Assembly: GCF_030160295.1 (NCBI RefSeq)
Contig: NZ_BSOB01000063.1
Coordinates: forward strand, 1-33,147
DNA: 33,147 nucleotides
Direction of reading: 5' to 3'
Source: Dyella acidisoli
GTDB taxonomy: Bacteria; Pseudomonadota; Gammaproteobacteria; Xanthomonadales; Rhodanobacteraceae
A program made the translations under genes and the position numbers. Of this stretch, positions 16,090-32,734 are shown one piece after another; position 1 is the stretch's first letter; each line of letters begins with the position of its first letter. The notes beneath the pieces are model-generated. The model searched no databases, was not told the DNA's origin, and saw only the letters and a program-made list of their open reading frames with translations.

Positions 16090-16140
16090 CGATCTTGCCC
16101 ATCCTCATGATGAGGTCACTCTGTAACGGACCCAAGATCC

Positions 16141-16889
16141 ATGCCTCGCCAGCCCCGACTCGATCTCCCCTATATTCCCCAGCACATTGTCCAACGCGGC
16201 AACGATAGGCAACCATGCTTCTTCACCGACATCGATCGTATTCGCCACCTTGATGAACTTCGCGAAATTACTCTGCACGAGCATTGCGTTGTACATGCTT
16301 ACGTTCTAATGACTAATCATGTTCATCTTCTGATGACGCCCACCGACAGTGGACAGATTGCACGAGTCATGCAGGCACTGGGGCGTCGCTATGTACGGTA
16401 TGTCAATGATCGGTACCGTCGTACGGGCACCTTGTGGGAAGGCCGATACAAGTCGTGCCGGTGGATAACGATTCGTATATTCTGCGCTGTTACCGTTATA
16501 TCGAATTGAACCCACTTCGAGCGCGAATGGTCGCGATGCCCCAAGACTATTCATGGTCGAGTTTCACCTACAATGCGCTTGGGGCACCTAACCTCCTAGT
16601 CCGGCCGCACCCATCATATCTTTCACTTGGCGCCGATTCGACAGAGCGTTGTGACGCGTATCGCACATTCGTGATGTATGCCGCCCCATCCGAAGAACTT
16701 GAAGATATTCGGCGACATTTGCAAAGCTGCAAAGCCAGCATGCCTACGGCTCTGAGCGCTTTCGTGCAGCCATTGAGGCCCAACTCGGGCGGCGTGCTGG
16801 ACCGGCCAGAATCGGAAGGCCAAGAAAGTCGAAGTTACCCGATGAAAGTGCAACCTGACCCCGGTTTCGGTAGACCCCGGTTTCGGTAG
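16141..16889 (+). pseudogene. REP-associated tyrosine transposase (RAYT, IS200-like), frameshifted
   Basis: The first part (16141-16509) reads MPRQPRLDLPYIPQHIVQRG and contains MTNHVHLLM (HuH motif) and the YVRYVNDRYRRTGTLWEGRY segment, unmistakable for TnpA_REP. At YKSC the frame is lost: the expected continuation YILRCYRYIELNPLRARMV is in the next frame and runs on to 16889. Around 16458-16461 the bases tgc cgg tgg would restore family sequence (C-x-V-D) if one base were added, so a single-base deletion is the simplest explanation. The product would be inactive unless the frame is restored. The ORF ends in the TAG of the REP element at 16886, and GTAG-footed REPs are what these enzymes act on. 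Confidence 0.87.
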
Positions 16890-16909
16890 GTTGGGGTGAA
16901 AACCCCAAC
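16886..16909 (+). repeat. REP element next to the RAYT gene
   Basis: GTAGGTTGGGGTGAAAACCC followed by CAAC, identical in reverse complement to 3282-3305. It directly abuts the RAYT gene's 3' end, the usual RAYT-REP arrangement. Just before it a 16-base unit ending CCCCGGTTTCGGTAG occurs twice in tandem (about 16857-16889). Confidence 0.85.
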
Positions 16910-17412
16910 ATCGCCATGCCCAGCAGAATCAAGGTGTTGAGGTTTACCCGCTAGCTACGAAATCCTTGGCGCCCTGGGTCGATGAGCTATGGGGCGATGG
17001 GAGGATATGGAACAACATGCTCTTCACGCCTAATCTCCTTCGGTTGGGAGATTGGACTCCAAATTGCCGTGCGACTCAAAACCGGGGGACGTCGCGGATG
17101 TCTGCGCAAATCCCGAATTCGGGATTGACACAAAATCACCTACAGGTGCAGAGTTGTTCGACGTGCGGATTGAGAGCAACTTTCACCGCATCAATGCCAT
17201 CGTGGCTGACGTCTCAGGGGAAAACATTTTGGCGCACAGAATGGACGTTTCGTCGCAGCACTTCGTTTTGTCGGATTGCCGCAGATTTGCCTCTGACACT
17301 GGCTGAGCTCCGCCAGAAAAGACGGTCACCATCACTCATAGCGCGATGCCAGAGCAGCAAGCTCTTGGATGTTGGGCGCTCTCTTACTTCGGCTTCAAAC
17401 AAGGGAATTGTC
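16910..17412. other. Stretch without a recognisable gene, upstream of the RHS gene
   Basis: About 500 bases of intermediate composition. Open frames exist, including one continuous with the RHS frame (from 16966) and one at 17052-17306, but none has a recognisable domain or a good ribosome binding site. I therefore start the RHS gene at 17413. It may be decayed sequence from transposition plus the RHS promoter. Confidence 0.45.
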
Positions 17413-20400
17413 ATGGCAAAGATTTCGAATCTTTCCAAGTTCTTCAGTCTTGCGCGCGCGGGTGAAAAGGGAGCCAACGCTCCGCTCAATGTGCGGACAC
17501 CTGCCGCCAAACACACCCAGCGTCGACCGAGTCGAATAAATTCCAAATTGACTATAGCTCTGGTTGGTCTGGTTGCGGTCGCTGGAATCAATAACCAGTT
17601 GGTAAGCGTTGCTCATGCCGATGATGCGGTTCCCACGAAAAACAACGATAACGACGGTGGCGGTGGCGGTGGCGGTGTTGGCGGCGTCACCAATGCGCCA
17701 CCCGTGAATGTGCCTGGCTATATCCCTCCCTCTGTCTACCCTACCCAAATCACGCTGGGCCCCGGACAGGGCTATGTGGGGCCAATAATCGAACCCGTGG
17801 GTATGGGCCCGAGTGGCGGTGGTTCTATACATACGCCGGCGAACAAGGCCCCGACAAGCAAAAAGAATCAAAATTCGAACCCCTGCCCAGACAATCAAGG
17901 CGATCCCATCATGATGAGCACAGGCAATAAGGCCTTGTCCGTGACGGAGTTTTCGCTGCCCGGCGAGATGGGGCTGAAGTTCGAAAGATTCTATAACTCG
18001 AAGAGCTATGGCGGCGAGTTATCCATTGGCGGATGGCAGACAAGTATTGACTTCCACCTATATGGAACGGAGTGCAGTAACGGCGGCGGCTACAGACCCA
18101 ATTGCGCGCCGGTAACCTTATTACGACCGGACGGTTCCACGTTGAATTTTTCGCTAGTGACGCCAGTGGCGGCAACATCGACGCCAGTGCAAGTAACTGG
18201 CCCATTTAATGGCGCTGGCACCGCGTTACTAACCTACAATGCTTCGAACAATACATATGTAGTTCAAGATGAAGATTCCCATGTACTGACCTTCAATAGC
18301 TCGGGCGCGTTGCTATCAATTAACGATTTAGCTGGTGTCGGCTGGACTATCACCCACCCCAATTCGTCCACGACCGTTGTCACTCACACAAGCGGCCAGT
18401 CCTATACGATCGCTATCACCGGAGGCACAGACGCGCTAGGCGACACTGTACAAACGACGGTGACTGATCCTGCTGGAAACGCGTACGTCTATAACACGAC
18501 GATTACTGTGGCATCGATTGTGCTTTACAGCAGCTTAGGTCGTATCAATTCAGTAACGTACCCCGGCTCACCAACCACGACTGTTTCCTATACCTACATA
18601 TCTCCTTCGTCGACGTTGGCGGACCTCTTAACAGGGGTGGCTTATAACGGCATTGCTCATGACGTAACGACTTACGACAGCAGCGGAAATGCCAATTCCA
18701 CGAGCATGGCAGATGGAACACAAAACACATCCATCGCCTATAGCTCCAATAGCGTAGGCAGAGTGGCGACCGTTACAAATGCACTGGGACACGTCAGCGT
18801 CTACCAATACAATTCAAGTGGCCTTTTGGTATCGATCACTGGCGATGCCTCGGCACACTGTACCGCCTCATACGCAAGCGTCACATATGACGCGAACGGC
18901 AACATGTCATCTTCAACAGATAACAACGGAAACGTTACTGAATATACCTATGCCAGTAACGGACTGTTGCAGCAAGAAGTAGAAAATCCAGGAGCAAGCC
19001 AGCGTGTCACTAACTTTGTCTGGGACACGACTCCGGGCGCAAACAGGCTTTTATCTGTCACTGTTGTTGGCTATCTCGAAACGTCTTACACATACAATGC
19101 CCAAGGGAGGTTGGCGTCAATCGCAAAGACAAATTTGTCGAGCAATGGGGTAGCCAATCAAGCCCAAACCACAACATACAGCTATGCACTGTCAGCAAAT
19201 GGATTGGTAACAAGCAAAACAATAACGCTTCCGTCGCCAAGCAACTCCAATACCATCACTTACAGTTACAACAGCGAGGGCTTTGAGACAAGCGAAACGA
19301 ATGTATTAGGCCAGTCAACTACTTATAGCAACTTCACTGGCAGAGGCTTACCCCAAACCGTCACAACAGAAAATGGCGATGTAAACAACTACGGTTACAA
19401 CGCCGGTCGACTCACGACTATTTCTCATACTCACGATGGCGCAACAAATACGGGCTACGTTTACTACGATGCCAATTCGCGTCAGATATCAGAGATCGTA
19501 CTGTTTGACAACGAAATAACCACCAACAGTTACGACGCCGACTTCAAACTCTTGTCATCCAAATGGACCGGCCCTTCTGGGGCCGTAATCACCAAGGGTT
19601 ATTCATATGACAACAACGGCGATGTAACGAGCGTTAGTTGGACTCGGCAGGGGGTGAGTGCAGCCGACCTTATTACACATACCTCTTACGACGAGCTTGG
19701 ACGCCCCATCGTCCAAAGCGGCAACCATGGTCAGAGCCTAACGACCGCATATGATCGGAACGGCAATGTGGCGTCTGTTACTGACGCAGCCGGAAATGTC
19801 ACGTCGCATAAGTACGACGCGTTTAATCGTCTACAGTCTTCGGTTGACGCAACTGGAAGGTCTACTTCGTACACCTACGACTTGGGCGATAACACCCTTC
19901 AGGTCACGGACCCTAGAGGCCTGTCTACAACATATCGCCCTGACGCGTTTGGTGATCTCTGGTCAATAAATAGCCCCGATACTGGTACAACCAGTTATGC
20001 CTTTGATGCATTCGGCCGCAGAACATCAAAGACAACAAATGACGGTGTGACAACCACGTACTCATATGACACTCTGAACAGAGTTACGTCGTTCAGTGCT
20101 GGGGGAAAAACGATTACCTATGCCTACGATTCCTGCACGTACGGCAAAGGCTATTTGTGTAGCTTCACGGACCCAACTGGCACGACGTCTTATACCTACT
20201 ACATTGAGGGCACTCTCGCTAGCAAGTCCTGGAGTGACGGCTCGTTGAGCAATTCAACCAGTTACGCTTATGACGGAATGAATCGGTTACTTCAGATATC
20301 TGAAGGTGGGATCATCACCGTCAACTACGCCCTGATTGATAATCAAGTTGGCTCGGTAAATCTGAGTTACTACGGACACAGTGCGAATGTGGTTTCTAGC

Positions 20401-21921
20401 GTCACTTACGATGCAGTTCGACATCCCATTGGCTGGACATACGGAAACGGCGTTCAGAGGAGCCAGGCGTATGACAATGACGGGAGAATCACTTCCATCA
20501 CGTCAACGATTGGCAGTTCAACGGTTCAAAGCCTGTCCTATGCGTGGGACAGTCTTAATCGCATCACGGGGATCACGAATGGCGCTTACCCCGTGGTTTC
20601 GCAAAACTTTACCTACGACAGCCTGTATCGACTGACCGGCATGACTGGGCCAGCACCAGTCACTCTTACATATGATCCAAACGGAAATCGGACTCAACAG
20701 GATTGGAAAACAAATGATGCCGTGACCATTTCGAGTTCGAGCAATCAGATGACGGCTCGCGGCACTCACTCGTATACCTACAATGCCAACGGCAGCAGGG
20801 CGACAGACACCGTTAGTGGGGTAACAACCACTTACAACTACGACCCATTTGGAAACCTTTCGAGTGCGGGTCGTCCTACGGCCATTAGCAACTGTGAAAC
20901 AAACGGAACTTGCCCGACATACCCCGCCGGCACCACCGCATACGTTTCCAACGCGCTCGGACAGCGCATCATTGAAGACGGCCCGAATGGCTTTGAGCTA
21001 TTTAACTATGGGATAGATGGTCAACTCACGGGCGAAAACGTGGTTCCGAGCAGCGGTTCAAGCACATCGAATTATTACGTTTACTTGAACGGTGAACCTG
21101 TCGCACTTGTCAACAATGAAAACACACTTTACTACGTGCATGACGACCATCATGGACGTCCTGAAGAGATCACAAACTCAAGCGGCAGTATGGTTTGGCT
21201 CGGTTTGAATTATGCGTTCGATCGCTCCATTTTGGTCGAAGGCATTCAAAACGTAGATATTGGTTTGCCTGGCCAGGTTTATGACTCGAACACTGGTAAC
21301 TGGAGCAATGGATTCCGCGACTACGACTCAAGTAATGGACGGTTTCTGGAGTCTGATCCAATTGGTTTGAGCGGTGGAGTCAATACATATGCCTATGTGG
21401 GTGGCGATCCATTGGACAACGTTGATCCTTCAGGGTTAGCCACTATGGTTCTCGTGGGTGGTTCGACTGCTGGCAACCCATTTGGTCATGTTGCTTTGGC
21501 GTTCACTGGGCAAGGGGTCTATAGCTACGGAACAGGGACGGCCTTTGGATCAAGCACAACGGACTACTTGGCTAAGCAGGCTACTTATAGGTCTACCACC
21601 GCTTACGTTCTAAACACGACGCCTGAACAAGAACAGAAGATGATCGATTACCTACAGAGTAATTACTCTCCTCAATCTGGCGGTAAGTATTCCGTGCTGA
21701 GGCATGATTGTGCGACGGCAGCTAATGGCGCGCTATCAGCGGCAGGAATTGGTGATGGCATCATTGACGGAGCTGCGCAGGCAGGAGGTATTTTGCTACC
21801 GCAGTTGCCTTCTACGTCAGCGATGATAGCTGCGTCTTATCCCGGCGCATCGATAGTTCAGATACCACAGGGCGGCAGCGCCCCATCATTCCTTGGCTCA
21901 TTCAATCCAATGGTGCACTGA
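17413..21921 (+). CDS. Sec-exported RHS/YD-repeat protein with C-terminal permuted papain-like toxin domain
   Basis: About 1502 residues. ATG 17413 has AAGGGA upstream. A basic N-terminus leads to a hydrophobic segment (LTIALVGLVAVAG, 46-58) and likely cleavage after VAHA (near 69), then a Gly-rich stretch. A DUF6531-like module with FERFYNSKSYGG follows at about 165-240. Many YD repeats (for example TYDANGNMSSSTDNNGNVTE) form the cage. The RHS core (about 1205-1343) ends ESDPIGLSGGVNTYAYVGGD and DPSGLA (1338-1343). The C-terminal domain (1344-1502) has PFGHVALAF (His 1359) and RHDCATAANGAL (Cys 1433), a His-before-Cys order and YVLNTTPEQEQ element resembling permuted NlpC/P60 or DUF4105-type papain folds. 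It probably acts as a peptidase, amidase or acyltransferase toxin. No PAAR domain is seen. Its stop overlaps the next gene (TGATG). Confidence 0.88.
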   Translation: MAKISNLSKFFSLARAGEKGANAPLNVRTPAAKHTQRRPSRINSKLTIALVGLVAVAGINNQLVSVAHADDAVPTKNNDNDGGGGGGGVGGVTNAPPVNVPGYIPPSVYPTQITLGPGQGYVGPIIEPVGMGPSGGGSIHTPANKAPTSKKNQNSNPCPDNQGDPIMMSTGNKALSVTEFSLPGEMGLKFERFYNSKSYGGELSIGGWQTSIDFHLYGTECSNGGGYRPNCAPVTLLRPDGSTLNFSLVTPVAATSTPVQVTGPFNGAGTALLTYNASNNTYVVQDEDSHVLTFNSSGALLSINDLAGVGWTITHPNSSTTVVTHTSGQSYTIAITGGTDALGDTVQTTVTDPAGNAYVYNTTITVASIVLYSSLGRINSVTYPGSPTTTVSYTYISPSSTLADLLTGVAYNGIAHDVTTYDSSGNANSTSMADGTQNTSIAYSSNSVGRVATVTNALGHVSVYQYNSSGLLVSITGDASAHCTASYASVTYDANGNMSSSTDNNGNVTEYTYASNGLLQQEVENPGASQRVTNFVWDTTPGANRLLSVTVVGYLETSYTYNAQGRLASIAKTNLSSNGVANQAQTTTYSYALSANGLVTSKTITLPSPSNSNTITYSYNSEGFETSETNVLGQSTTYSNFTGRGLPQTVTTENGDVNNYGYNAGRLTTISHTHDGATNTGYVYYDANSRQISEIVLFDNEITTNSYDADFKLLSSKWTGPSGAVITKGYSYDNNGDVTSVSWTRQGVSAADLITHTSYDELGRPIVQSGNHGQSLTTAYDRNGNVASVTDAAGNVTSHKYDAFNRLQSSVDATGRSTSYTYDLGDNTLQVTDPRGLSTTYRPDAFGDLWSINSPDTGTTSYAFDAFGRRTSKTTNDGVTTTYSYDTLNRVTSFSAGGKTITYAYDSCTYGKGYLCSFTDPTGTTSYTYYIEGTLASKSWSDGSLSNSTSYAYDGMNRLLQISEGGIITVNYALIDNQVGSVNLSYYGHSANVVSSVTYDAVRHPIGWTYGNGVQRSQAYDNDGRITSITSTIGSSTVQSLSYAWDSLNRITGITNGAYPVVSQNFTYDSLYRLTGMTGPAPVTLTYDPNGNRTQQDWKTNDAVTISSSSNQMTARGTHSYTYNANGSRATDTVSGVTTTYNYDPFGNLSSAGRPTAISNCETNGTCPTYPAGTTAYVSNALGQRIIEDGPNGFELFNYGIDGQLTGENVVPSSGSSTSNYYVYLNGEPVALVNNENTLYYVHDDHHGRPEEITNSSGSMVWLGLNYAFDRSILVEGIQNVDIGLPGQVYDSNTGNWSNGFRDYDSSNGRFLESDPIGLSGGVNTYAYVGGDPLDNVDPSGLATMVLVGGSTAGNPFGHVALAFTGQGVYSYGTGTAFGSSTTDYLAKQATYRSTTAYVLNTTPEQEQKMIDYLQSNYSPQSGGKYSVLRHDCATAANGALSAAGIGDGIIDGAAQAGGILLPQLPSTSAMIAASYPGASIVQIPQGGSAPSFLGSFNPMVH

Positions 21922-22358
21922 TGCCAGGAACTAAGTTCAAATCGGCAATCGTGATGATTGCCATCGTCGCTGTCGTCGCTGCCTGCTATTACTTATTGAA
22001 GCCAAGGCTTATGTCAGACAAAGGATTTCTTGAGATCGCTCAGGCACCAATTTGGTCGGACTTGCAAGGAATAGAATTCCAGCATCGAGCAAAAAGAGAT
22101 TTGAAGTTACCAGTATTGCTAAAAGGAGCTGTTGATTCTGGCAAATACGATGTACTTGGTGTCGTCGGGAAAAGTTCCCGCACTCCATCCGTATGGATCG
22201 TTCTCAACGTGAATGCCGGAGTGAATGGTATTTATGCAATGCCGAGTGACGTGGACTATGCACTTCCTTGCAGCTATCTGCGTGATCTTACCTCCAAAGA
22301 GGTGATTGATAGTAAGGTTCGGGTTGCTCTTCAGTCACATTGCATAGAATCTTTGTAA
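21921..22358 (+). CDS. Membrane-anchored probable immunity protein for the RHS toxin domain
   Basis: A 145-residue protein starting at the ATG that overlaps the RHS stop by one base. A short basic N-terminus (MPGTKFK) and one hydrophobic helix (SAIVMIAIVAVVAACYYLL, about 8-26) predict a single N-in anchor with about 118 residues outside the cytoplasm. Two Cys in the C-terminal part (LPCSYL, SHCIESL) could form a disulfide there. No family recognised. Immediate placement after a polymorphic-toxin C-terminus, coupling and envelope location match an immunity protein guarding the periplasm. The assignment is by context. Confidence 0.7.
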   Translation: MPGTKFKSAIVMIAIVAVVAACYYLLKPRLMSDKGFLEIAQAPIWSDLQGIEFQHRAKRDLKLPVLLKGAVDSGKYDVLGVVGKSSRTPSVWIVLNVNAGVNGIYAMPSDVDYALPCSYLRDLTSKEVIDSKVRVALQSHCIESL

Positions 22359-22381
22359 GCCGACAGTGAAATGCAATCGTG

Positions 22382-22582
22382 ATGAGTAAACAGGGCGCGG
22401 GTAAAATCATCACGCGCACTCTTGAAGCTGACACGCTGCCGAGTGCCAGCGAGCTGGCTATGCTTGCTCGCTTAGCTTCTATGCCGGACAGCGACATCCC
22501 GCCCAATTCACCCGGTACCGAGTGGACGCGGCCAGGTGCCCCTTCGCCCATCATCACGTTCGCGCTTAAGCCGCGCGACTAG
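22382..22582 (+). CDS. Small hypothetical protein with BrnA-like segment
   Basis: About 66 residues from ATG 22382 (a GTG lies one codon before). The segment ELAMLARLASMPDSDIPPNS resembles the 'L-x-x-MPDxDIDTSDIPE' turn of BrnA-type antitoxins, and the end IITFALKPRD is basic. No BrnT-like toxin lies beside it. It could be an orphan antitoxin or a decayed remnant. No signal peptide or membrane segment. The next gene is on the opposite strand. Confidence 0.4.
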   Translation: MSKQGAGKIITRTLEADTLPSASELAMLARLASMPDSDIPPNSPGTEWTRPGAPSPIITFALKPRD

Positions 22583-22650
22583 CTAGGTGCATCGCTGCAT
22601 CATGTTTGACTTATCGTTGCATTACCGAGGACGCTTCACCATTCCTACAA

Positions 22651-22679
22651 GAACCCCTCCTCCAAAGAAAGAGGGGTTC
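22651..22679 (-). terminator. Possible terminator hairpin between convergent genes
   Basis: GAACCCCTC (22651-22659) pairs with GAGGGGTTC (22671-22679) around an 11-base loop. On the minus strand it lies just past the stop of the pepsin-like autotransporter and is followed by TTGTAGG, with only a weak T run. On the plus strand no T run follows. It may stop both convergent transcripts. Confidence 0.5.
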
Positions 22680-22686
22680 ACCATTG

Positions 22687-25600
22687 CTAGAACTGCCACG
22701 TCACATTGCCACGGAATCCCGCATCGACCGCATGCGCAGCGATCTGGCTGTCGTAGGAAATACCCAGCTTCATCGACTTGTTCACTGCGAGGTCGAGTCC
22801 GGCATCGACGATCAGCGCATTGCGGGAAATCGGCAGACCTTGCACCGTGAAGGAACCGCCATCCGCGAAGGCCATCGATGCATCCGGCTGCACGTTGCCG
22901 AAAGCATGACGCCATCCCAGCGTGGCATGGGCAGTGAATGCGTCACCCTGGAAAATGAAGTGGGTCGCTGAGTGCGCACCCAGCGTCGTGTAGGTGACGG
23001 AACGTTGGTTGCCCTGCCCCGTCAACGCCATTGCACCGCCACGTTCCTGGAAGCCATCCGTATCCAGCCGCACGTAGGCGGCTTGGGCAAACGGCTCCAG
23101 CGTGGCCTTCTTGTACGTCAGTTGGTAAGCGGCTTCACCGAATACCTCGGTGGTATGCGCGTCGGCGCTGCCGCGTAGATGGTTGGAGACATCCGGTATC
23201 GCAACGGTGCGCGTCGTATCCATGGCGTGTTGCGTGTAATCCACGCCTGCGCTCAATCCAAGTGCGCCGAATCGCGTGCCCGCATAGGCACCGAAGTAGC
23301 CGTCGTCGCTCGACAGTGACGAACCGCGTTGATTCACGTTGAAGGCGGTTTTCGTATATCCGCTAACCACACCAGCCCGGGTGTTTTCGCCGAACGGCAT
23401 ATCCGCACCAACGAGAAAGCCGCCCAACGTACGCGACATGGCTGCGTCGTTTCCGGTGCTGTCCTGATGTCCCCAGGAACCGACGAATTGTCCCCACCAT
23501 GTGACACCGTTGGCCTGCGTTTTGGCAGGTTGCGTGGATGCCCCGCCAGCGCCTGACCAGCTGGCATCAGCCTGACGCAAACGCCCGGTCACCGCGTCAC
23601 GCACGATGCGCGAATCTTCCAGGAACGTGTTTTGTGCGCTGGCGTAGATTTCTCCTGACAACTGATCGGCGGCAGCGCGTATTTGCGCGTCGCTTTGCAA
23701 ATTGGTCAGCGCGATGAAGGGTGCGCTGGCAACAGACAAACCCTGCACCGCTTCGAGCACGGCCGTCTGGTTGCGCGTTTGCGCGGACGCCACCAACGAG
23801 CGCTGCTGTACCACGTCCAGATAGAAATGGTCCGCATCATATTGCGGCACAACCTTTAGCACCGCGCTCAGCGTTGTATCGCCCGCAATCGTGTAAGTAC
23901 CGCTGAGGCCGCTATTGGCCGTCAGCAAGGTGTAGCGCGAACCGGTCTGAAAAAGCGGTACGGACGACGCCGACGGAACCAGGTCGACGATGGCGCCCGT
24001 CGCCAGCGTAGCCGTTCCACCGACCGCGATCTGACTCGACGCACCTGCTTGCGCAAGATTCCACTGCGCCACATACGTAGCACCCGCAGCCTGCGTGTAA
24101 TTGCCGGCGACATTCAACGTTTGATACGTGCCTCTCGCCGTACCCGGAGCGACGGTGCCAGCCACCATCAGGCCGCCGCCAATGCTGCCGTTACCGAGCA
24201 GCGTGCCCGTATCCACCACTGAACCAGCGACCGATCCCTGCAGATTAAGCGCGCCCTGCGGACTGATGCCAGTGAGTCCGCTGTACGTATTGTTGCCGGT
24301 GAGCGTTTCCATGCCGTTGGCGACGATCAAGCCACCACCGGTTCCACCGCCGAGGCCGCCATCCGACAATTGTCCGCTAAACGAACCACTGGCTTGCGTG
24401 AGTTCAAGCGTACTGCCGCCCAGATAAACCGTACCGGCACCGGAGAGCGATTGGATGCCTACACCGCTCGACGCACGCGAAATGTCGAACGTGCCATCGG
24501 CTTGAACGCCGGCCGACGTTGCGATGCTTCCCGGCCCTGCCAGCCCCAGCCAGCCACCCTGCGCGATCACGGTGGCGCCCGTGTACGTATTGGTTCCGCT
24601 CAAATTGGCGATGCCGCCAGACGCCACGGTAAACGGGCCGGCACCTGAAATAGTGCCGGCAAGACCCAGCGGCCCCATTGCTGCGGTCACCGTGAAATCG
24701 GTCGTAAGCGCCGCATCGGTGACGTAGAACGGCGTGTAGGCCGTTGCCTGGTTCTGCAGGTCATACATCACTGCGTTGTTCATGAAGAACGATACGCCGT
24801 ACAACGCCGAGCCCGATCCACTGAAAGCATTGCCACCCGGCGTCACCACATTGCTTTGGTCGCCGGTGCTGTCGTCACCAGTGGTGATAGACGTTGGCTT
24901 TGAACCAGGCGATGCGCCCGTCATCGTCAGCGTTACGCCACCCACTTCGTTGCCGTTGGCATTGATATGCCCGGCGTTGGTTTCACTGGCCAGCAATCCG
25001 TTGTCGTTGAGGTAGATGGTAGGCGTACCCGAATCGAGCAACGTTTGCAGCGTGGCGGTGTATTTGCCGTTGTTCAACGTGTAGTTGAACAGGGTGTCGA
25101 ACTGCTGTGCTGCGTTCGCGCCGGAAAGGTTGAACGAGCCTTGCGCGCCGCCAACCCATGGCACCACACTGAGAAACTGCGCACGCAAGGCTGGCGTAAG
25201 GCCGAGAATGAAGCACGCCTGCCCGCAACCGCCAGGCACGCCAGGCTTGCCATTCGCTTCCACGATATAGCCGGTGGTGGTGAGCATGCCGGGCGGGCCG
25301 CCGTTGTCGCCGGGATAAACGAAATCACCCGCGCCAAACGTGCCGTAGTAATGCCCTTCTTCCGGCGCACTGCCCTGGTTGATGAGCTGCTGCCAGGTAA
25401 GATCCTGATACAGCGTTACCGTTTGATTCGACGAATTGATGTTCGTCGTGATGGCAGCACCCTGCGTATCGCCACCGGGTGTGTTCGGCGCAAATTGATT
25501 CGACGTCATCACCCAATCCAACGCCGCGGCGACAGGCAGGCCTTGCGACGTCGTAGCTCCGTACACCTTGCTGCCCGTTGCCGAGCTGTAGAACTGGATG

Positions 25601-25941
25601 CTCGAAACCGTAGCGTTCTGCTGCCAATACCCGTAAGTGCCATCTCCATAGGCATACAGATACGGCGAGCTGGTCACCGAGCTGGCCAAATTGGGAAACC
25701 ACGATACGGAACCACTTCCGCTACCCACATCGATATTGAACGAATCGGAACCCGTATCGAACAAATATTCCTGCGGCGTACCTCCATTGACACCTACGTT
25801 GATGCCAAGGCGATAGATGTACGAACTCCCTCCGTTGGATTCCTGGATGATATCCAGCGGGATATCGCTTGCTGCGGCGTAACCATGCGACAACAGACCA
25901 ACCAGAGCGCACCACAGCGCCCTTTGCTTCAACTTCTTCAT
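22687..25941 (-). CDS. Autotransporter with pepsin-like (A1-type) aspartic protease passenger
   Basis: A 1084-residue protein. A signal peptide (MKKLKQRALWCALVGLLSHG, then YAAA, cut near 24) precedes a two-lobed pepsin-like domain at about 26-407. Visible parts: YLFDTGSDSFNI with Asp 62 as first catalytic residue; YAYGDGTYGYW with Tyr 98 as likely flap; LLDSGTPTIYL with Asp 303 as second; and GVSFFMNNAVMYDLQNQATA near 382-401, matching the FDxxxxxxGFA ending of pepsins. The Asp-Asp gap of 241 residues is larger than pepsin's, so loops are extended; a lone C239-C243 pair may be a disulfide. Then come autotransporter-associated repeats (NTYTGATVIAQGGWL, NTYSGLTGISPQGAL), a helical pre-barrel segment, and a barrel (about 815-1084) ending RGNVTWQF. 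Predicted surface endoprotease; substrate and self-release are inferred. ATG 25941 has GGGGGA just upstream. Confidence 0.87.
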   Translation of the reverse strand: MKKLKQRALWCALVGLLSHGYAAASDIPLDIIQESNGGSSYIYRLGINVGVNGGTPQEYLFDTGSDSFNIDVGSGSGSVSWFPNLASSVTSSPYLYAYGDGTYGYWQQNATVSSIQFYSSATGSKVYGATTSQGLPVAAALDWVMTSNQFAPNTPGGDTQGAAITTNINSSNQTVTLYQDLTWQQLINQGSAPEEGHYYGTFGAGDFVYPGDNGGPPGMLTTTGYIVEANGKPGVPGGCGQACFILGLTPALRAQFLSVVPWVGGAQGSFNLSGANAAQQFDTLFNYTLNNGKYTATLQTLLDSGTPTIYLNDNGLLASETNAGHINANGNEVGGVTLTMTGASPGSKPTSITTGDDSTGDQSNVVTPGGNAFSGSGSALYGVSFFMNNAVMYDLQNQATAYTPFYVTDAALTTDFTVTAAMGPLGLAGTISGAGPFTVASGGIANLSGTNTYTGATVIAQGGWLGLAGPGSIATSAGVQADGTFDISRASSGVGIQSLSGAGTVYLGGSTLELTQASGSFSGQLSDGGLGGGTGGGLIVANGMETLTGNNTYSGLTGISPQGALNLQGSVAGSVVDTGTLLGNGSIGGGLMVAGTVAPGTARGTYQTLNVAGNYTQAAGATYVAQWNLAQAGASSQIAVGGTATLATGAIVDLVPSASSVPLFQTGSRYTLLTANSGLSGTYTIAGDTTLSAVLKVVPQYDADHFYLDVVQQRSLVASAQTRNQTAVLEAVQGLSVASAPFIALTNLQSDAQIRAAADQLSGEIYASAQNTFLEDSRIVRDAVTGRLRQADASWSGAGGASTQPAKTQANGVTWWGQFVGSWGHQDSTGNDAAMSRTLGGFLVGADMPFGENTRAGVVSGYTKTAFNVNQRGSSLSSDDGYFGAYAGTRFGALGLSAGVDYTQHAMDTTRTVAIPDVSNHLRGSADAHTTEVFGEAAYQLTYKKATLEPFAQAAYVRLDTDGFQERGGAMALTGQGNQRSVTYTTLGAHSATHFIFQGDAFTAHATLGWRHAFGNVQPDASMAFADGGSFTVQGLPISRNALIVDAGLDLAVNKSMKLGISYDSQIAAHAVDAGFRGNVTWQF

Positions 25942-25969
25942 TCATCCCCCGATGACATGCAAAAAAAAA
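25942..25969 (-). promoter_or_regulatory. 5' leader with a run of nine T, and GGGGGA ribosome binding site
   Basis: On the minus strand GGGGGA (25945-25950) lies three bases before ATG 25941, slightly close. A run of nine T (25961-25969) lies 20-28 bases before the start codon, next to the ribosome binding site. Such a run could vary in length by slippage and change expression. A CTATCT/AGATAG hairpin sits at 26042-26057. No sure promoter. Confidence 0.45.
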
Positions 25970-26093
25970 CAACATCCTGGAGGTTAAGGACGAAAAAGAA
26001 GTGAAAAACCCTACCCTGTATGGCCTGACTTATTTCTCGGCCTATCTGCAGAGATAGCGCAAGGAAGCAAATGGCCCGATTTGATATCCCGCC

Positions 26094-26576
26094 TTACGAG
26101 CTGGAAGCATCCACGTAGCCGACGATGCGCGCAGGCGAGCCAACGACGATTGCAAACGGCGGCACCGATTTGGTCACCACGGCACCGGCACCTACCATTG
26201 CACTCTCTCCGATGGTGATCCCCGGCAAAATCGTAGCGTTCGCACCGATCGAGGCGCCCTTGCATACGCGGGTCTGAAGGAAGGCAGCCGGTCGCACTCG
26301 CGAGCGCGGGAACGGATCGTTGGTGAATGTAGCGTTGGGGCCGATGAAGACGTCGTCCTCGATGCGAATACCGTCCCACAACTGCACACCGGACTTGATG
26401 GTCGAGCGGCTGCCAACCTCCACATCGTTTTCGATGAAACAATGGGAGCAGATGTTCACGTCCTCGCCGATGCGCGCACCTTCGAGGATGACGACGTACT
26501 GCCACACCCGTGTGCGGGCGCCGATGTGGGGGCTTTGTACGTCGGCGGACGGGTGGATCATGGCCGGGTCGCTCAT
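26094..26576 (-). CDS. Hexapeptide-repeat N-acetyltransferase, probably for a 3-amino-3,6-dideoxysugar
   Basis: About 160 residues of left-handed beta-helix repeats ([LIV]-G-x(4)), for example [20 protein letters not shown], and [13 protein letters not shown] with PRSRVR around it, a feature of the FdtC/QdtC-like sugar N-acetyltransferases. They use acetyl-CoA to acetylate dTDP-3-amino-3,6-dideoxyhexose, finishing Fuc3NAc or Qui3NAc. A ketoisomerase (32214-32651) and aminotransferase (31026-32138) of that pathway are in the same operon. I start at ATG 26576 ([13 protein letters not shown]); longer readings would include repeat-encoded residues. It is separated from the Wzz-like gene by a repeat-filled gap. 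Confidence 0.84.
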
Positions 26577-26633
26577 GAAGTGCTCTTGGGTGCTGAATAC
26601 GTTTAGCAATGCTTCCAACACATCGCAAACCAG

Positions 26634-26789
26634 TCCCCTCTCCCCTTTGGGGAGAGGGTTAGGGTGAGGGGCGAAGCTTGCGAGAAACTCATTTGATACG
26701 TGCAAGTTTTGCTTTTTTTCTCGCACAGAACCAACTATTGCACGAGATTGGCCCCTCACCCCAGCCCTCTCCCCGAAGGGGAGAGGGAG
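26634..26789. repeat. Composite inverted intergenic repeat, copy 3
   Basis: The left module CCCCTCTCCCCTTTGGGGAG plus AGGGTTAGGGTGAGGGGCGA is inverted relative to the right module CCCCTCACCCCAGCCCTCTC plus CCCGAAGGGGAGAGGGAG, with a spacer of about 70 bases. It lies inside the polysaccharide operon between the Wzz-like gene and the acetyltransferase and could weaken read-through to the acetyltransferase. Confidence 0.75.
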
Positions 26790-26836
26790 CGCCGCGACAT
26801 TGAATTTTCCCGAAGGGCAGTCAGCCCACACCGGAA

Positions 26837-27694
26837 TTACGAAAGCTCCTTCGCCGCAATCCGCGACGTAGCGGCGGAAACTGCAGCACGCCGCCGCAAC
26901 GCATTCCGGCGCACTGCCGCCAATGTTCCCAGGAACACGCCCAGCACGCCCCCCATGCCCCACATCAGCAAGTGATTAGGAAATACTGGATCTTCCGAGA
27001 CGTAGACCGGCCACATCAGCGAGGTGTCGTACGTGTAAGTGGTGCTCAAGCGCGCCTCAAGATCGGCGCGCGCTTGCTGCAGGGAGCGGACCTCGTCATT
27101 CTTGCTGGTTAGCAAGACGCCCGCGAAATTGTCCTTGCTCTGTGTGGCGACTTGTTGCAGATGATCCCTTTCTGCCGTGGTTTGCTGCAGATCTGTCAGT
27201 ACTTCGGCAAGGTGCGCGCGTGCGAAATTCAGCTGTGTGGCTTCCGTGCTGCGATGAATGTCCCTCAGCCGCTCGACCGTTGCTTCGGCCAGCTTGCGAG
27301 CCATCTCCGGCGAATGCGCACGCACGCTGAGCTTGATCAGCGGACCGGCGTAAGGCAGCGGTTCGATCTTCAGACTATGGCGATAAAGTGCGCCTTCGGG
27401 TGTACGCGACCCAATGCCGATGCTCTCTAGTGTTTCGTTCTGGAACGGGATCAGCTTCACGCGCTCCATCACGCGCGCAAACGGTTCGGCCTTGGGATCC
27501 TGCCCTGCCGGCACGAAACCGACCTGCCCGATCTGAATCCAGGCGTCGGCTTGCCACTGCGGTTTGGTCACGCGCAGGAAGGTGAAGGTGGCGGCAAGAA
27601 CCACGATCAGCACAGCCATGAACCAGCGCCATTCGCGCAGCAGGATGCGCCACATATCGATCAAATAGACTTCATCTCGTTGCATAGTTGGCAT
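26837..27694 (-). CDS. Wzz-like polysaccharide chain-length determinant
   Basis: About 285 residues, the two-helix layout of polysaccharide co-polymerases: a TM near 24-45 ([19 protein letters not shown]), a periplasmic coiled-coil region with AQ-rich helices ([20 protein letters not shown]), and a second TM near 240-260 ([20 protein letters not shown]). No cytoplasmic kinase domain is attached. It should set the length of the polymer made by the Wzy gene next door. ATG 27694 overlaps that gene's stop by 23 bases; an internal ATG at 27685 is the alternative. Family Wzz (PF02706) is inferred from topology and context. Confidence 0.8.
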
Positions 27695-28829
27695 GCTCGT
27701 CTGAAAGATGGGGTAGCGCGTTACGGTTCGGCAGCCATACGGCCAGCACCTGCAGCACCAGGCAAACGGCGATAAAGCCGCCGTTGGTAAAGGTGTAGGC
27801 TTGCGGAGCGAACGGCGACATCAGGCACACGTACGCAACGCGCAGAAAAATAAGCAAAGGAAACAGCGCAACCGACGCCTGCAGACGTCGTACGCTCCAC
27901 GCCAGCAGCGCGTAGAGACCGATGATCGAAAGCATGGCGCCGATGGGACCAAAGGCCATCAGGAACGGAAAGAATTCCGTACCTACGTTGATGTTAGGCG
28001 CGTCCAGTGGAATATCCGTGTCTGCTGTGGCAATGGCACCGGCGCCTGGCATCAACTGACTGACCAGGAATGCAGCGTTCGTGTAGTGCTTGGCGAAGAT
28101 CGCGCCGAAGTTGTATGGGCCAGCGCTGATATAGAGCAGCAGCCACTTCACACCCTGTGGTGAATCACGGTAAGCGTCGCTGAAAGGCAAAGTGACCGTA
28201 TCCAGCGAACCCGAACGCAGCATGCCCAGCACGGAAAATACGGTACCGCCCAGCACCACCAGAAAGACCACGCGCAGCCAAGGCACACGCTTATGCAAAC
28301 CCCGGCGCAACAGCAGCACCATGGCGAGTGCAAACAGCGACGCGAAAATGCGATTGCGGTCGATCACCAGCACCGGAAACACCACGCCTACCGTGATCAG
28401 CGCCCAGCGCAACCAGCGATTGCGCGCGCACAGCAAGCCGATCGGCGGCAACGTCCAGCACATGTCGGAAATATGCCGGATATGCTCGTGGCCGCCCTCC
28501 ATCGTGGCGTAGGACGACGGATTGGTAATGAGCGGAATCGGAAACAGCGCAAGATCGAGCAAACAGAAAAGCCCGACCGCTACTGCATAAGCCAGGGCTA
28601 CGAATGCTTCGCGCGTACCGGCATAGTGATGCTGGCGAAATTGCACCATCAGTGGCAGCCGCGGACCGAACAGAAGGTCGATCAGCAGCACACCCAGCGA
28701 CGCGGTCGCCAACAGCAACACGCCCTGCAGATAGTCATCCGGCATATCAAAGCTGTACAGCGTCAGCCCGCATGCCAGCAGCACGGGCAGCACCAGATAG
28801 GTGGAAGGCAGGCGCAGCAGCCAGCTCAT
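27672..28829 (-). CDS. O-antigen polymerase-like (Wzy-type) membrane protein
   Basis: About 385 residues, hydrophobic, with about ten predicted membrane helices. Clear ones include TYLVLPVLLACGLTLYSF, AFVALAYAVAVGLFCLLDLA and LRVVFLVVLGGTVFSVLGML. A periplasmic loop after the middle carries YNFGAIFAKHYTNAAFLVSQ and other polar residues. Such polymerases are poorly conserved, so the call rests on topology and on its place between the glycosyltransferase/flippase and Wzz. It would join lipid-linked repeat units in the periplasm. ATG 28829 overlaps the upstream GT2 stop in an ATGA. Confidence 0.75.
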   Translation of the reverse strand: MSWLLRLPSTYLVLPVLLACGLTLYSFDMPDDYLQGVLLLATASLGVLLIDLLFGPRLPLMVQFRQHHYAGTREAFVALAYAVAVGLFCLLDLALFPIPLITNPSSYATMEGGHEHIRHISDMCWTLPPIGLLCARNRWLRWALITVGVVFPVLVIDRNRIFASLFALAMVLLLRRGLHKRVPWLRVVFLVVLGGTVFSVLGMLRSGSLDTVTLPFSDAYRDSPQGVKWLLLYISAGPYNFGAIFAKHYTNAAFLVSQLMPGAGAIATADTDIPLDAPNINVGTEFFPFLMAFGPIGAMLSIIGLYALLAWSVRRLQASVALFPLLIFLRVAYVCLMSPFAPQAYTFTNGGFIAVCLVLQVLAVWLPNRNALPHLSDEHANYATR

Positions 28830-29782
28830 GTCTTCTCCAGCAGCGTACCGATAGGTGGCAGCCTCAGTTTGGACACGGCCAGCAACGCGAGGTACACCAG
28901 CATGTGGAACGCCAGCACGAACATGCGCTTCTGCAGGAACGCGATCTTTGCGCAAATGTAATGCGCTTGCGCTTTGAGCAAGGTGCGGTGTGGTTCGTCG
29001 AACAGATCCGCGCGGCGCCGCGCCACCTCACATGATTCAGTGAGGTTTACGATACGCGTGGCCGTATGCCGCGTCTTGCTCACGTTATTGCCATGCAGGC
29101 GATACGCGCCCACGTGCACGTCGATAAAGCCAAGAGCATCACACGCGGCCACGCGCAAGAAGAAATCCCAATCGTCGATGCGCAACCCTTCCGTCCAGCG
29201 GCCGATGGTCTCCAGCGCGCTCTTGTGTAGTAACGCAACGGGACCGCCAATCGCCCACTGGCTGATCACCGCCCGGCGGATACCTTCATCGCTGCTGTAC
29301 AAACGCTTGTCGGCATGATGCAAATCGCGCATGCCGCTGTCGTGCAACTTGTTGCCGTACTGGTCCACCACAATGGAATCGCCAACCACCGCCCGCTTGG
29401 TGGGATGCATTTGCAGATAGCGCACCTGCGCCTCCAGACCGCCCGGTAAAAGGTAGTCATCGCTGGCGCACAGGCGCAGGAACTCGCCTCGCGCACGTGC
29501 CGCCAACTCGTTCCAGGCAGCACTGATGCCCCGGTTTTCGCGCTGCACGTACTCCACACGCAGCAAATGGCCCTGCGCCTTGATCCATTCGGCGATCTTT
29601 TCCCCGGTGCGGTCGGTGGAGCCATCGTCGATAACCACGATCTCCTTGGCCGGATAGGGATCTTCCAGCACGCTGTCCAGGCAACGCTGCACGAAGCGCT
29701 CGTGGTTGTAGGCCGGGATCAACACGGAAACCAGGGGCTTGGCCGCGGCCGGCGTAGTCATCACTTTGGCTGCTGTCGTCAT
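28826..29782 (-). CDS. Family 2 glycosyltransferase
   Basis: About 318 residues. LVSVLIPAYNHERFVQRCLD begins the GT-A fold; IVVIDDGSTDRTGEKI provides the first Asp pair; LRLCASDDYLLPGG holds the metal-binding DxD-like pair; RIDDWDFFLRVAACDALGF is the later ED-like acidic stretch. A C-terminal hydrophobic segment (FVLAFHMLVYLALLAV) may sit on the membrane. It adds a sugar to the undecaprenyl-linked repeat unit. ATG 29782 overlaps the upstream flippase stop (ATGA). Confidence 0.87.
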   Translation of the reverse strand: MTTAAKVMTTPAAAKPLVSVLIPAYNHERFVQRCLDSVLEDPYPAKEIVVIDDGSTDRTGEKIAEWIKAQGHLLRVEYVQRENRGISAAWNELAARARGEFLRLCASDDYLLPGGLEAQVRYLQMHPTKRAVVGDSIVVDQYGNKLHDSGMRDLHHADKRLYSSDEGIRRAVISQWAIGGPVALLHKSALETIGRWTEGLRIDDWDFFLRVAACDALGFIDVHVGAYRLHGNNVSKTRHTATRIVNLTESCEVARRRADLFDEPHRTLLKAQAHYICAKIAFLQKRMFVLAFHMLVYLALLAVSKLRLPPIGTLLEKT

Positions 29783-31029
29783 AGCGCCCCCAAATAGCGT
29801 CGCGCAACAACCAAGTTGAACGCGAGATAGAACAGGTAATTCACGGCAAAGGCGTACATCGCACCGATCAAACCGAACGACGCGGTGAATACGTAAACCA
29901 AGGCCAAGTAGCTCAGTGCGAACACGCATTCAGAAATCACAAACAGCCGCGTCATGGCCTTGGCCAGCATCAGATACGACAGCATGAAGGATGCAATCTT
30001 GAGCACATCACCCAGCAGTTGCGGCGCGTACAAGGCGTTCGCGGATGAAAAGTCCGCGCTGAACAACAAGCGTGTCACCCACCCGCGCATCGCGTAGACG
30101 AACAGCGCCATGACGACAACAGCCGGCAACAGATAGCGGTAAGCATTGCGCAACTCGTTCGCCAGTGATGCGCGATCATGTGTGGCAGCAAGCTTGGGTA
30201 GGTAATAAATGTTGATCGCGGTGGTGAGGAACAGCAGGTAGGCATCCGACACCTTGCTCACCGCCTGCCAATAACCTACCCGCTCCCAGCCAAACTGCAG
30301 CGCCAGATGGTTGCGCACGGCGATGTTGATCAGCGGCAACAGCAATGCCGAGGTAAGCGTCATGATCGAGAAGGCAGCGAGCTTCAGGCTCATCTCGCGA
30401 TCGAAATGCATGCGCAACATCCCGCGCTGGAAATAAGGACTGCGCCGCCAGGCTGGCAGCCCCACCACCAGCAACAACACCTGCCCAGCCACCAGCGCCA
30501 ACAATGCGCCATACAGATGCAGCCAACGCGACAGCCCCAACGCCAGCACCACACTCAGCACCGAACCAAGCACCTGGATGAAAGCCAGCCGGCGCACATC
30601 CATGAAACCGTTGATCACGGCCAATATGTAATTGGCCAACGCAATGCCGAGCTGCGCGACAGCGAGAATGCGGATCAGATTTTCGTAATGCGTATCGCCC
30701 AGCAGCCATAGCGAAAGCTGGCGGCTCATCAATAACGCCACACATCCCATCAACACGGAAGCGATGCATGCGTACCACAGCGCCGCGGCCAGCAGCCGCG
30801 AAAGCCGTTGCGCATCGTGGCGATATTCCGCCACGTATTTCACGATGCCCGCGCTGATGCCGCCGCCGGCGAGCACCGCCAGCAATGACATCAAGCTCAT
30901 GAATTGGCCGAGCTTGCCCACCCCTTCTGGTCCGGCCAGCCACGCCACCAGCTTCACGATCACCAACCCCGCCAGCAGACGCGCCGCGGTGGCGATGGTC
31001 GAATAGAAGCCGGCGCGCACGATGCTCAT
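29779..31029 (-). CDS. Wzx-type lipid-linked oligosaccharide flippase
   Basis: 416 residues with about twelve membrane helices, beginning MSIVRAGFYSTIATAARLLA and KLVAWLAGPEGVGKLGQFMS, a pattern of MATE/Wzx-like polysaccharide transporters. It should flip the completed undecaprenyl-pyrophosphate repeat unit to the periplasmic leaflet. ATG 31029 overlaps the aminotransferase stop in an ATGA. Confidence 0.85.
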   Translation of the reverse strand: MSIVRAGFYSTIATAARLLAGLVIVKLVAWLAGPEGVGKLGQFMSLMSLLAVLAGGGISAGIVKYVAEYRHDAQRLSRLLAAALWYACIASVLMGCVALLMSRQLSLWLLGDTHYENLIRILAVAQLGIALANYILAVINGFMDVRRLAFIQVLGSVLSVVLALGLSRWLHLYGALLALVAGQVLLLVVGLPAWRRSPYFQRGMLRMHFDREMSLKLAAFSIMTLTSALLLPLINIAVRNHLALQFGWERVGYWQAVSKVSDAYLLFLTTAINIYYLPKLAATHDRASLANELRNAYRYLLPAVVVMALFVYAMRGWVTRLLFSADFSSANALYAPQLLGDVLKIASFMLSYLMLAKAMTRLFVISECVFALSYLALVYVFTASFGLIGAMYAFAVNYLFYLAFNLVVARRYLGAL

Positions 31030-32138
31030 GCCGCGGCCTCGAATGTCTGGCAGGCGGCAATCACTCGCTGCACGTCTTCATCGCGCAAGGTCGGCCCGAT
31101 CGGCAGACTCAGCACTTCGTCGTGCAATTGCTCGGTCAACGGCAAATGCAGTTCATGCAACGCGGGATACGCCGCCTGGCGATGCGGCGGCGTCGGGTAG
31201 TGCACCTGGCTATGCACGCCATGCGCCTGCAGATGTCGTTGCAAAGCTTCCCGCTGTGCGCAACGCACAACGAACAGATGCCAAACATGCCGTGCCTCGT
31301 CGGCCACCGCCGGCAGGTGGATCAAGGGATGGCTGATGCCTTCGCGATAACGCCGCGCTACGTGGCGACGTTTTGCAATGTCCTCGTCGAGGTATTTCAG
31401 CTTCACGCGCAACAACGCAGCCTGCAGTTCGTCCAGGCGCGAATTGATGCCTTGGTAAAGATGCTGGTACTTCACTTCCGAGCCGTAATTGCGCAGCGCA
31501 GTGACGCGCGCGGCCAACAGGCTGTCGTTCGTGACGACCGCGCCGCCATCGCCCAGCGCCCCCAGGTTTTTTGCGGGAAAAAAGCTGAAGCCTGCGGCAT
31601 GTCCCCATGCACCGGCCTTGCGCTCATGGCTTGCCGCGCCATGCGATTGCGCCGCATCCTCGATCAATAGCAATTGATGGCGCTCTGCCAACTCGGTTAA
31701 AGCAGCCATGTCGGCGAGTTGACCGTACAAATGCACAGCCATGATCGCGCGCGTGCGTGGACCGATCGCCGCTGCGACACGTATCGGGTCGATATTGAAA
31801 CTTACCGGATCGGGCTCCACGGGTACCGGCACCAACCCGCTTTCGGTAATGGCGAGAAAGCTGGCAATGAAAGTGTTGGCAGGCACGATCACCTCATCGC
31901 CATCGTGCAGTGCGCCCAAGGCCTTGTAGCCGCGCAGGATCAGCGACAGCGCATCCAGGCCGTTGCCCACTCCGATCGCGTGGCGCACACCGCAGTAGTC
32001 GGCGAACTCCCGCTCGAACGCCGCAACTTCCTGGCCAAGGATGTACCAGCCCGAGTCAATCACGCGCGCAGCGGCGGCCTTCAGCTCGTCGGCGTGACGC
32101 GCGTTGATGTCTTTGAGATTGAGAAAGGGGATGTCCAT
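31026..32138 (-). CDS. DegT/DnrJ/EryC1 sugar aminotransferase, 3-keto-6-deoxysugar type
   Basis: About 370 residues, PLP-dependent. The N-terminus MDIPFLNLKDINARHADELK and YCGVRHAIGVGNGLDALSLI are typical; LLIEDAAQSHGA holds the Asp near the pyridine ring; FSFFPAKNLGALGDGGAVVT contains the likely PLP Lys. Family members of the FdtB/QdtB branch aminate dTDP-3-keto-6-deoxyhexose, taking the product of the neighbouring ketoisomerase. ATG 32138 is the common family start; an in-frame ATG at 32192 would add 18 residues. The gap from the upstream gene's stop is 75 bases. Confidence 0.88.
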   Translation of the reverse strand: MDIPFLNLKDINARHADELKAAAARVIDSGWYILGQEVAAFEREFADYCGVRHAIGVGNGLDALSLILRGYKALGALHDGDEVIVPANTFIASFLAITESGLVPVPVEPDPVSFNIDPIRVAAAIGPRTRAIMAVHLYGQLADMAALTELAERHQLLLIEDAAQSHGAASHERKAGAWGHAAGFSFFPAKNLGALGDGGAVVTNDSLLAARVTALRNYGSEVKYQHLYQGINSRLDELQAALLRVKLKYLDEDIAKRRHVARRYREGISHPLIHLPAVADEARHVWHLFVVRCAQREALQRHLQAHGVHSQVHYPTPPHRQAAYPALHELHLPLTEQLHDEVLSLPIGPTLRDEDVQRVIAACQTFEAAA

Positions 32139-32213
32139 ATCAGGCGTTGCAATCGCTGTTCCACTGAAAAGGCTCGCAGGCGAGCTGCGCATACTCTGGT
32201 GCGCTGATAAGGA

Positions 32214-32651
32214 CTAGCCGTTTTGGCATGCAGCCAACTCTCCGCGATACAGGGGGCTTTTCACCTCACTCAGGAATTCGTCGTAGTTGGTGATGTAATC
32301 GGTGGGGTCGTACAACTGGTCGGCCAACACCATCAACACGCAGTCGTCGCTGAAGTCGTACATCTCGCGCCACACCATGTTGCCCAATAGGAGACCTTGC
32401 GAAGGATCATCAAGCACGACCTCCACCGGCCCCGTGCCATCGTCAAGCAAGAACGTAACCGAGCCGCGCACCGCCACCGCCAGCTGGTTCAAGTGGCGAT
32501 GCGCATGCTGACCGCGATGCACCTCGTTCTTGGTGGCGAACAGGTAATACACGCGCCGGATATCGAAGGACACGTTGCGATCCTTCTCCAAAGCAATGAG
32601 CATGCCGCGCTCATCGCCATGCTGCTGCAACTGGACTCGTTGAATTTGCAT
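32214..32651 (-). CDS. dTDP-4-dehydro-6-deoxyhexose 3,4-ketoisomerase (FdtA/QdtA type)
   Basis: 145-residue single-domain RmlC-like cupin. HGDERGMLIALEKDRNVSFD and RRVYYLFATKNEVHRGQHAH fit the WxcM-like/FdtA family; the HRGQHAHRHLNQ segment holds the conserved His cluster; the DPSQGLLLGNMVWREMYDFS stretch is typical too. It converts dTDP-4-keto-6-deoxyglucose to the 3-keto isomer for the aminotransferase that follows. Whether it yields the galacto (FdtA) or gluco (QdtA) form cannot be told by eye. RmlA and RmlB, needed for its substrate, are not in the window. It is the first gene of the polysaccharide operon; ATG 32651 has no strong ribosome binding site. Confidence 0.88.
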   Translation of the reverse strand: MQIQRVQLQQHGDERGMLIALEKDRNVSFDIRRVYYLFATKNEVHRGQHAHRHLNQLAVAVRGSVTFLLDDGTGPVEVVLDDPSQGLLLGNMVWREMYDFSDDCVLMVLADQLYDPTDYITNYDEFLSEVKSPLYRGELAACQNG

Positions 32652-32734
32652 GTTGTGGACCGGCCGTCGGCTTCCGTGGATGCGTCATGCAAATGAGTGC
32701 CGGGCTGTCAGGAAAAGGTTGTGGTTGTGTTGCT

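Follow-up and report, generated by a model that had tools for sequence, protein, structure and literature searches.

Within a 33,147-nucleotide stretch of DNA from Dyella acidisoli (contig NZ_BSOB01000063.1 of assembly GCF_030160295.1), referred to below as the window, a gene on the minus strand encodes a protein that is very likely a classical (type Va) autotransporter, with a passenger that carries a catalytically competent pepsin-fold aspartic endopeptidase at its N-terminal end and is predicted to degrade extracellular proteins. The type Va layout is found in a single chain, with a signal recognised by eye, a passenger, a 12-strand barrel and a terminal aromatic residue (Table 1). Computation establishes this architecture, the fold of the N-terminal domain and the invariance of its catalytic set among the homologues found, while surface endopeptidase activity is a prediction.

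An initial annotation, made from the sequence alone, had placed a pepsin-like protease at 24721–25866, and this interval corresponds exactly to residues 26–407 of the open reading frame (ORF) at 22687–25941. The hallmarks that it listed, FDTGS (Asp62), YGDGT (Tyr98), DSGT (Asp303) and the pepsin-like lobe ending MYDLQNQATAYTP (residues 392–404, within the protease domain), are all present. Its C-terminal barrel is recognised by Pfam model PF03797 (residues 815–1064, E 3.9e-60) and the last residue is indeed Phe. The autotransporter repeats that it reported held up in part: the Pfam repeat model PATR (PF12951) reached only 15.8 bits against a cut-off of 27, but structural modelling yielded a regular strand-rich stem. 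In NCBIfam, residues 542–1084 match the EprS-like stem and barrel model NF051851 (E 8.5e-88); with 295.5 bits against 1700, and only over these residues, the protein does not belong to the EprS family itself. Cysteines occur at positions 11, 239 and 243 of the whole protein, and only the last two lie beyond the signal region.

An AlphaFold2 (AF2) model of residues 24–425 gave a predicted local distance difference test score (pLDDT) of 95.5 and a predicted template modelling score (pTM) of 0.94, with a two-lobed pepsin fold across the whole domain; a prediction of this kind had been proposed as a check in the initial annotation. The full-length model, built from a 55-row alignment, had a mean pLDDT of 90.3 and a pTM of 0.68, at which the placement of the domains relative to each other is unreliable. 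Its pLDDT falls below 50 at residues 1–10 and 14–21 and the first strand starts at residue 25; the stem extends over approximately residues 406–712, followed by helices at 716–792, a low-confidence loop at 794–809 and twelve long barrel strands between residues 814 and 1083. Foldseek searches with this model retrieved EstA, AaaA, NalP and EspP for the barrel, the Ssp structure 8e7f, and pepsins. Ssp matched both by profile (E 1.1e-21) and by fold (31% identity over 204 columns), and the pepsin matches of the protease domain in VIA-align showed 10–18% identity among the 50 matches listed. The retropepsin-like class of single-lobe dimers is ruled out, as the chain has two lobes and two D[T/S]G motifs. 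The domain shows three features of family A1, namely a two-lobed fold, an Asp-Thr/Ser-Gly motif in each lobe and a flap tyrosine. Family A1 has also been defined by a psi-loop motif, hydrophobic-hydrophobic-Gly, in each lobe (PMC2761423, as far as the available text describes it), and the corresponding motifs here are TFG and LYG, the first lobe being counted across the family for Gly only.

Conservation was assessed in 177 distinct homologues, the query included, which were collected in three protein searches, one of them using the 120 listed of 127 matches. Loss of either Asp in close homologues had been named beforehand as grounds for abandoning the protease interpretation. It was not seen: Asp62 is present in all 176 aligned rows with a letter, the lone gap being a 571-residue ORF with a later start (P0147), and Asp303 in 172 of 172, the five gaps being ORFs of 210–335 residues. 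The accompanying residues are kept to a similar extent, with Gly64 in 176/176 rows, Gly305 in 172/172, Tyr98 in 175/177, Ser65 in 175/176 and Thr306 in 145/172, as are the psi-loop residues Gly203 (174/177) and Gly382 (168/168). The first 120 homologues, taken alone, retain both Asp and both following Gly residues in every case, and the set extends to 23–29% identity in its twelve most distant rows. Exactly two cysteines follow residue 30 in 82 of the 113 barrel-bearing homologues, with a spacing of 3 or 4 in 80 of these 82. Since the high-confidence model is bilobed and both Asp residues are invariant among the homologues found, the catalytic motifs are not a product of chance, and the interpretation of the protein as a pepsin-like protease on an autotransporter gains support from both model and alignment.

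Table 1. Features of the autotransporter gene and its product, with window coordinates.
Feature	Coordinates	Strand	Basis
Complete gene, autotransporter with pepsin-like passenger, 1084 aa, ATG start	22687..25941	-	ORF, PF03797, full-length model
Sec-type signal peptide, approximately residues 1–25 (MKKLKQRALWCALVGLLSHGYAAAS)	25867..25941	-	Read by eye: basic start, hydrophobic core, small residues
Bilobed pepsin-like aspartic protease domain, residues 26–407	24721..25866	-	AF2 model, Foldseek and VIA-align pepsin matches
Catalytic motif of N-lobe, Asp62-Thr-Gly-Ser65	25747..25758	-	D62 in 176/176 homologues with a letter
Flap YGDGT, Tyr98 (= pepsin Tyr75)	25636..25650	-	Y in 175/177; chymosin profile match
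Psi-loop motif of N-lobe, GTFG, residues 200–203	25333..25344	-	G200 176/177, G203 174/177
Cys239...Cys243 close pair	25213..25227	-	C239 156/177, C243 138/177
Catalytic motif of C-lobe, Asp303-Ser-Gly-Thr306	25024..25035	-	D303 172/172 with a letter; aligned to pepsin DTGT
Psi-loop motif of C-lobe, LYG, residues 380–382	24796..24804	-	G382 168/168 with a letter
Strand-rich passenger stem, residues 408–712, read as beta-helix	23806..24720	-	Model; Ssp 8e7f match by profile and fold
Helical linker, residues 713–792	23566..23805	-	DSSP of model
12-strand outer-membrane barrel, residues 814–1084, Phe at end	22690..23502	-	PF03797; strands counted in model; EstA, AaaA, NalP matches

The same conservation bears on whether the domain is a pepsin fold used for binding, as a pseudoprotease or adhesin without catalysis. 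Pregnancy-associated glycoproteins and the xylanase inhibitor of family A1 are non-enzymes. Both are counted in the family (PMC2761423, in the part available), and Basic 7S globulin was among the Foldseek matches of the domain. We nevertheless consider a binding module very improbable because such a fold would not require that both Asp, the Gly following each, the flap Tyr and both psi-loop Gly residues be kept in nearly every homologue, down to the most distant ones.

Several observations weigh against a pepsin-type protease. In sequence the domain is only marginally similar to solved pepsins, with 1am5 at E 0.0074 and its best single stretch at E 0.22, and residues 26–407 match no Pfam aspartic-protease model, nor does NCBIfam name one. 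The Foldseek superpositions are loose, with template modelling scores (by query length) of 0.38–0.51 and root-mean-square deviations of 6.1–13.7 Å among the 50 matches listed. Aligned by eye, Asn69 occupies the position of a pepsin Trp, which we take to be Trp39 in pepsin numbering. The homologue search collects sequences by shared five-residue words and may thereby favour those that keep the motifs, and some relatives lack a barrel, so that the domain is not constantly paired with one. Other comparisons gave little: phmmer of the protein against Protein Data Bank (PDB) sequences yielded nothing relevant, while the A1 profile matched chymosin in the flap region (profile positions 63–123, E 0.023). 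One member of an 11-member alignment of the autotransporter forms (A2) gave PF13650 (Asp_protease_2, E 0.038), and single members of A2 also gave unrelated weak matches to KH_2, DUF3439, PGRS, LIC20036 and RadC (E 0.045–8.4). Pfam and NCBIfam leave a naming gap, recognising only the stem and barrel of the window protein. Some members bear the source name 'subtilase-type serine protease', which is probably wrong for the enzyme domain.

The domain represents a whole exported bacterial family and not a one-off. Named sources include Dyella, Rhodanobacter, Fulvimonas, Acetobacter, Neokomagataea, Zymomonas, Serratia, Paracoccus, Mesorhizobium, Ancylobacter and Aquabacter. The host genome itself carries a paralogue of the whole protein with 56% identity (C17:139552-142782, locus L003), which lies near a 5283-residue open frame with repeated stem units. 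Within the genus, 6 of 16 genomes carry the domain, and within the family 23 of 147 sampled genomes; in the order it was detected in 20 of 398 sampled genomes, every one of them from the host's family, and a domain-only profile found it in 4 of 398 genomes sampled from the phylum. These counts include the host genome and, for genus, family and order, a congeneric genome (G145) with a short remnant only, located in an 88-residue frame at C14:12651-12749 and with the appearance of gene decay. A phylum search with the full-length profile (133 of 398 genomes) had collected mostly stems and barrels of other autotransporters and was replaced by that with the domain-only profile.

The initial annotation had also called for a search for proteins pairing this domain with a barrel, and the pairing proved common, a query-like barrel being detected in 113 of the 177 homologues. 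Other formats include barrel-less relatives of about 640–720 residues that retain a piece of stem. Three relatives show a PEP-CTERM motif, P0155 with a score above the curated cut-off and P0150 and P0163 with scores under it, which suggests that the domain is also anchored at the surface by another route; P0162 carries TIG repeats, and in P0100 an LprI lysozyme-inhibitor domain precedes the protease domain. A tree constructed by a quick method from 103 of the 177 rows, after 14 rows had been dropped by length and the barrel-bearing rows thinned from 113 to 53, mixed the barrel-bearing and barrel-less rows, with at least nine changes of the barrel label forced by the starred branches. Repeated gain of the barrel is not claimed, given that several of the rows lacking a barrel may have been cut off at contig ends and that long branches meet.

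One intact barrel-less relative (L069:4211-6181) has 656 residues and a signal-like start, and is followed after 28 bases by a 350-residue ORF; no barrel was seen by eye in the neighbouring ORFs, and three of these were free of NCBIfam barrel matches. It is possibly a periplasmic or released version. Such forms could be taken to mean that the domain is a periplasmic enzyme, or stays caught at the outer membrane, and that the barrel serves to anchor it and not as a secretion pore. For the window protein we regard this as highly unlikely, in view of its full 12-strand barrel, its autotransporter-type stem and linker and its Cys-poor passenger, which together make up a normal secretion set.

The likeness to a surface aspartic protease of mycobacterial PE_PGRS proteins, raised in the initial annotation as a comparison, stands and can be taken further through secreted intermediates. 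A five-row profile of secreted forms (A5) matched the PE_PGRS16 structure 4ehc (E 5.9e-5), over the first-lobe motif and flap region only, and matched the autotransporter profile A2 with an hhalign probability of 99.8 (E 4.7e-30), a comparison with some circularity, as A2 had served to find the A5 rows. Because the secreted-form profile matches both, the window domain and the PE_PGRS proteases are probably related by homology and not only by analogy. Moreover, P0163 matched the PE-PGRS_C model PF20729 with E 2.7e-6, scoring 27.4 against a curated cut-off of 33; it had no phmmer match to PDB sequences at E up to 1. The window domain gave no match to PF20729 at E up to 10, and 4ehc was absent among the 50 matches listed by VIA-align or Foldseek, which is no evidence against kinship. 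On a broader view, to which we give an even chance, exported bacterial pepsins form a large superfamily that has no name in Pfam or NCBIfam outside PE-PGRS_C, and the window protein belongs to a single branch of it. The superfamily would then occur on an autotransporter barrel, with a PEP-CTERM anchor, on a barrel-less stem, as a TIG-repeat secreted form and, by profile, in the PE_PGRS proteases, and in the autotransporter form post-translocation folding would replace the propeptide as the safety catch.

Autotransporters are established to undergo Sec export and barrel insertion, with emergence and folding of the passenger from C- to N-terminus. For the window protein, the barrel would insert into the outer membrane after Sec export and the passenger would thread out C-terminus first, such that the N-terminal protease domain would emerge and fold last, outside the cell. 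Delayed folding could then take the place of zymogen control and a pepsin-type propeptide would be unnecessary; with the first model strand at residue 25, no room is left for one after the signal-like start. Following A1 chemistry, Asp62 and Asp303, one from each lobe, would activate water and extended peptides would be cut under the Tyr98 flap. The enzyme, displayed on its stem or released, would most likely serve the breakdown of extracellular proteins in acidic surroundings, for nutrition or competition.

Alternatively, the main targets of the protease might be its own passenger or surface proteins nearby, and it might free itself from the barrel, with general digestion secondary. This shares its architecture with the extracellular protease outlined above, and the probabilities of the two overlap. 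Self-cleavage, along with cleavage of other surface proteins, is described for PecA (PMC6819658), and processing of autotransporters in vitro for the outer-membrane retropepsin APRc (PMC4140852), both according to the available portions of these papers, and the low-confidence loop just before the barrel could be a cleavage site. Against this, no cleavage site was identified in the present analyses and the long stem would keep the protease domain well away from this loop within the same molecule, and we consider self-release as the main role possible but rather unlikely.

For the surface endopeptidase that we favour, an acid optimum is plausible, and is hinted at by Thr at the pepsin 218 position, an acidic surface and hosts from acid habitats. 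The residue at 218 is Ala in six of the seven bacterial homologues described earlier (PMC2761423; the abstract prints Asp), and some points run counter to an acid optimum. Shewasin A, with Ala at this position, still works at pH 4 (PMC4814920, in the part accessible), and Val383, aligned by eye, lies where pepsin has Asp303, which is paired there with Thr218. Acidity extends to the stem (13 against 4), and a domain pI of 4.05 was given little weight for this reason and for its resemblance to a calculator floor.

Gene neighbourhoods were compared for 21 loci (20 fetched, together with window positions 14001–33147), in which a crude ORF caller yielded 276 ORFs of at least 100 residues. Only the autotransporter itself (17 loci) formed a cluster that spanned more than four loci, and two clusters occurred in three loci. 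A four-locus cluster (L053, L054, L055 and L067) comprised exactly the loci missing from the autotransporter cluster and is probably an antisense frame taken by the caller. With this caller no partner gene recurred in more than four of the 21 loci, so that no dedicated inhibitor or activator is evident, and the autotransporter is read as a stand-alone gene. A search for sigma-70-like promoters over 21800–26300 found none where 2.5 were expected by chance, and is uninformative. Elsewhere in the window, a second autotransporter ORF of 1154 residues lies at 4181–7645 on the minus strand, with PF03797 (E 5.1e-32), an NCBIfam barrel model and no named passenger. An RHS/YD-repeat protein of 1651 residues is encoded at 16966–21921 on the plus strand, convergent with the protease gene. 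Surface polysaccharide genes lie directly upstream of the protease gene on the same strand (26094–32192), for a hexapeptide transferase, Wzz, a glycosyltransferase, a polysaccharide synthesis protein and a DegT aminotransferase.

Earlier accounts treat pepsins of bacteria as rare and in general cytoplasmic (PMC2761423, PMC4814920 and PMC6819658, in the parts available), and the initial annotation likewise held them to be few, a view now to be amended by a whole exported family with barrel-less sister forms. Rawlings and Bateman (2009) reported pepsin homologues from seven bacteria, all of them without a signal peptide (PMC2761423), and shewasin D is located for the most part in the cytoplasm (PMC4814920). 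These seven homologues and shewasins A and D resemble the window domain as bacterial two-lobed A1 proteins that have two Asp and mostly a flap Tyr, but the window protein adds an export start and an outer-membrane barrel. The few exported exceptions comprise PecA, an unsequenced Synergistes enzyme (PMC2761423) and Amuc_1434 of Akkermansia, which is called a secreted family A1 aspartic peptidase (PMC13271334). Amuc_1434 is likened to the window protein by description alone, and the available part of that paper mentions no autotransporter for it. APRc of Rickettsia is similarly an aspartic protease of the Gram-negative outer membrane, but it is of retropepsin type and processes autotransporters rather than being one (PMC4140852, in part). 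In the open-licence literature searched, no description was found of an autotransporter combined with a pepsin-like or aspartic protease, including for acetic acid bacteria and Dyella, which agrees with the initial annotation, and no paper was found on PEP-CTERM together with aspartic proteases or pepsins.

Compared with pepsin, cathepsin D and plasmepsin of family A1, the domain shares the bilobed fold, the DTGS and DSGT motifs, the flap Tyr and a psi-loop Gly in each lobe, while differing in its single close Cys pair, the lack of an evident propeptide, its bacterial origin and its fusion to an autotransporter. The family would allow a direct test of whether a pepsin can dispense with its propeptide when folding waits until after translocation, and the window protein is a candidate self-secreting acid protease. 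The mycobacterial aspartic proteases PecA and PE_PGRS16, of which PecA cuts both itself and other PE_PGRS proteins, are likewise bacterial pepsin-fold proteases exported to the surface, but they use type VII secretion behind a PE domain and lack a barrel (PMC6819658, as described in the part available). The serine-protease autotransporters Ssp and EprS have homologous stems and barrels and bear a serine peptidase in place of the pepsin-type N-terminal enzyme, so that the chassis is theirs with a different enzyme at the tip. The window protein joins a known fold to a known display system, and this pairing seems not to have been described before. It belongs to a recurrent Gram-negative pepsin family that is equipped for export, has named members in Dyella, Rhodanobacter, Acetobacter and Zymomonas, and forms a bridge between autotransporter proteases and the surface proteases of mycobacteria.

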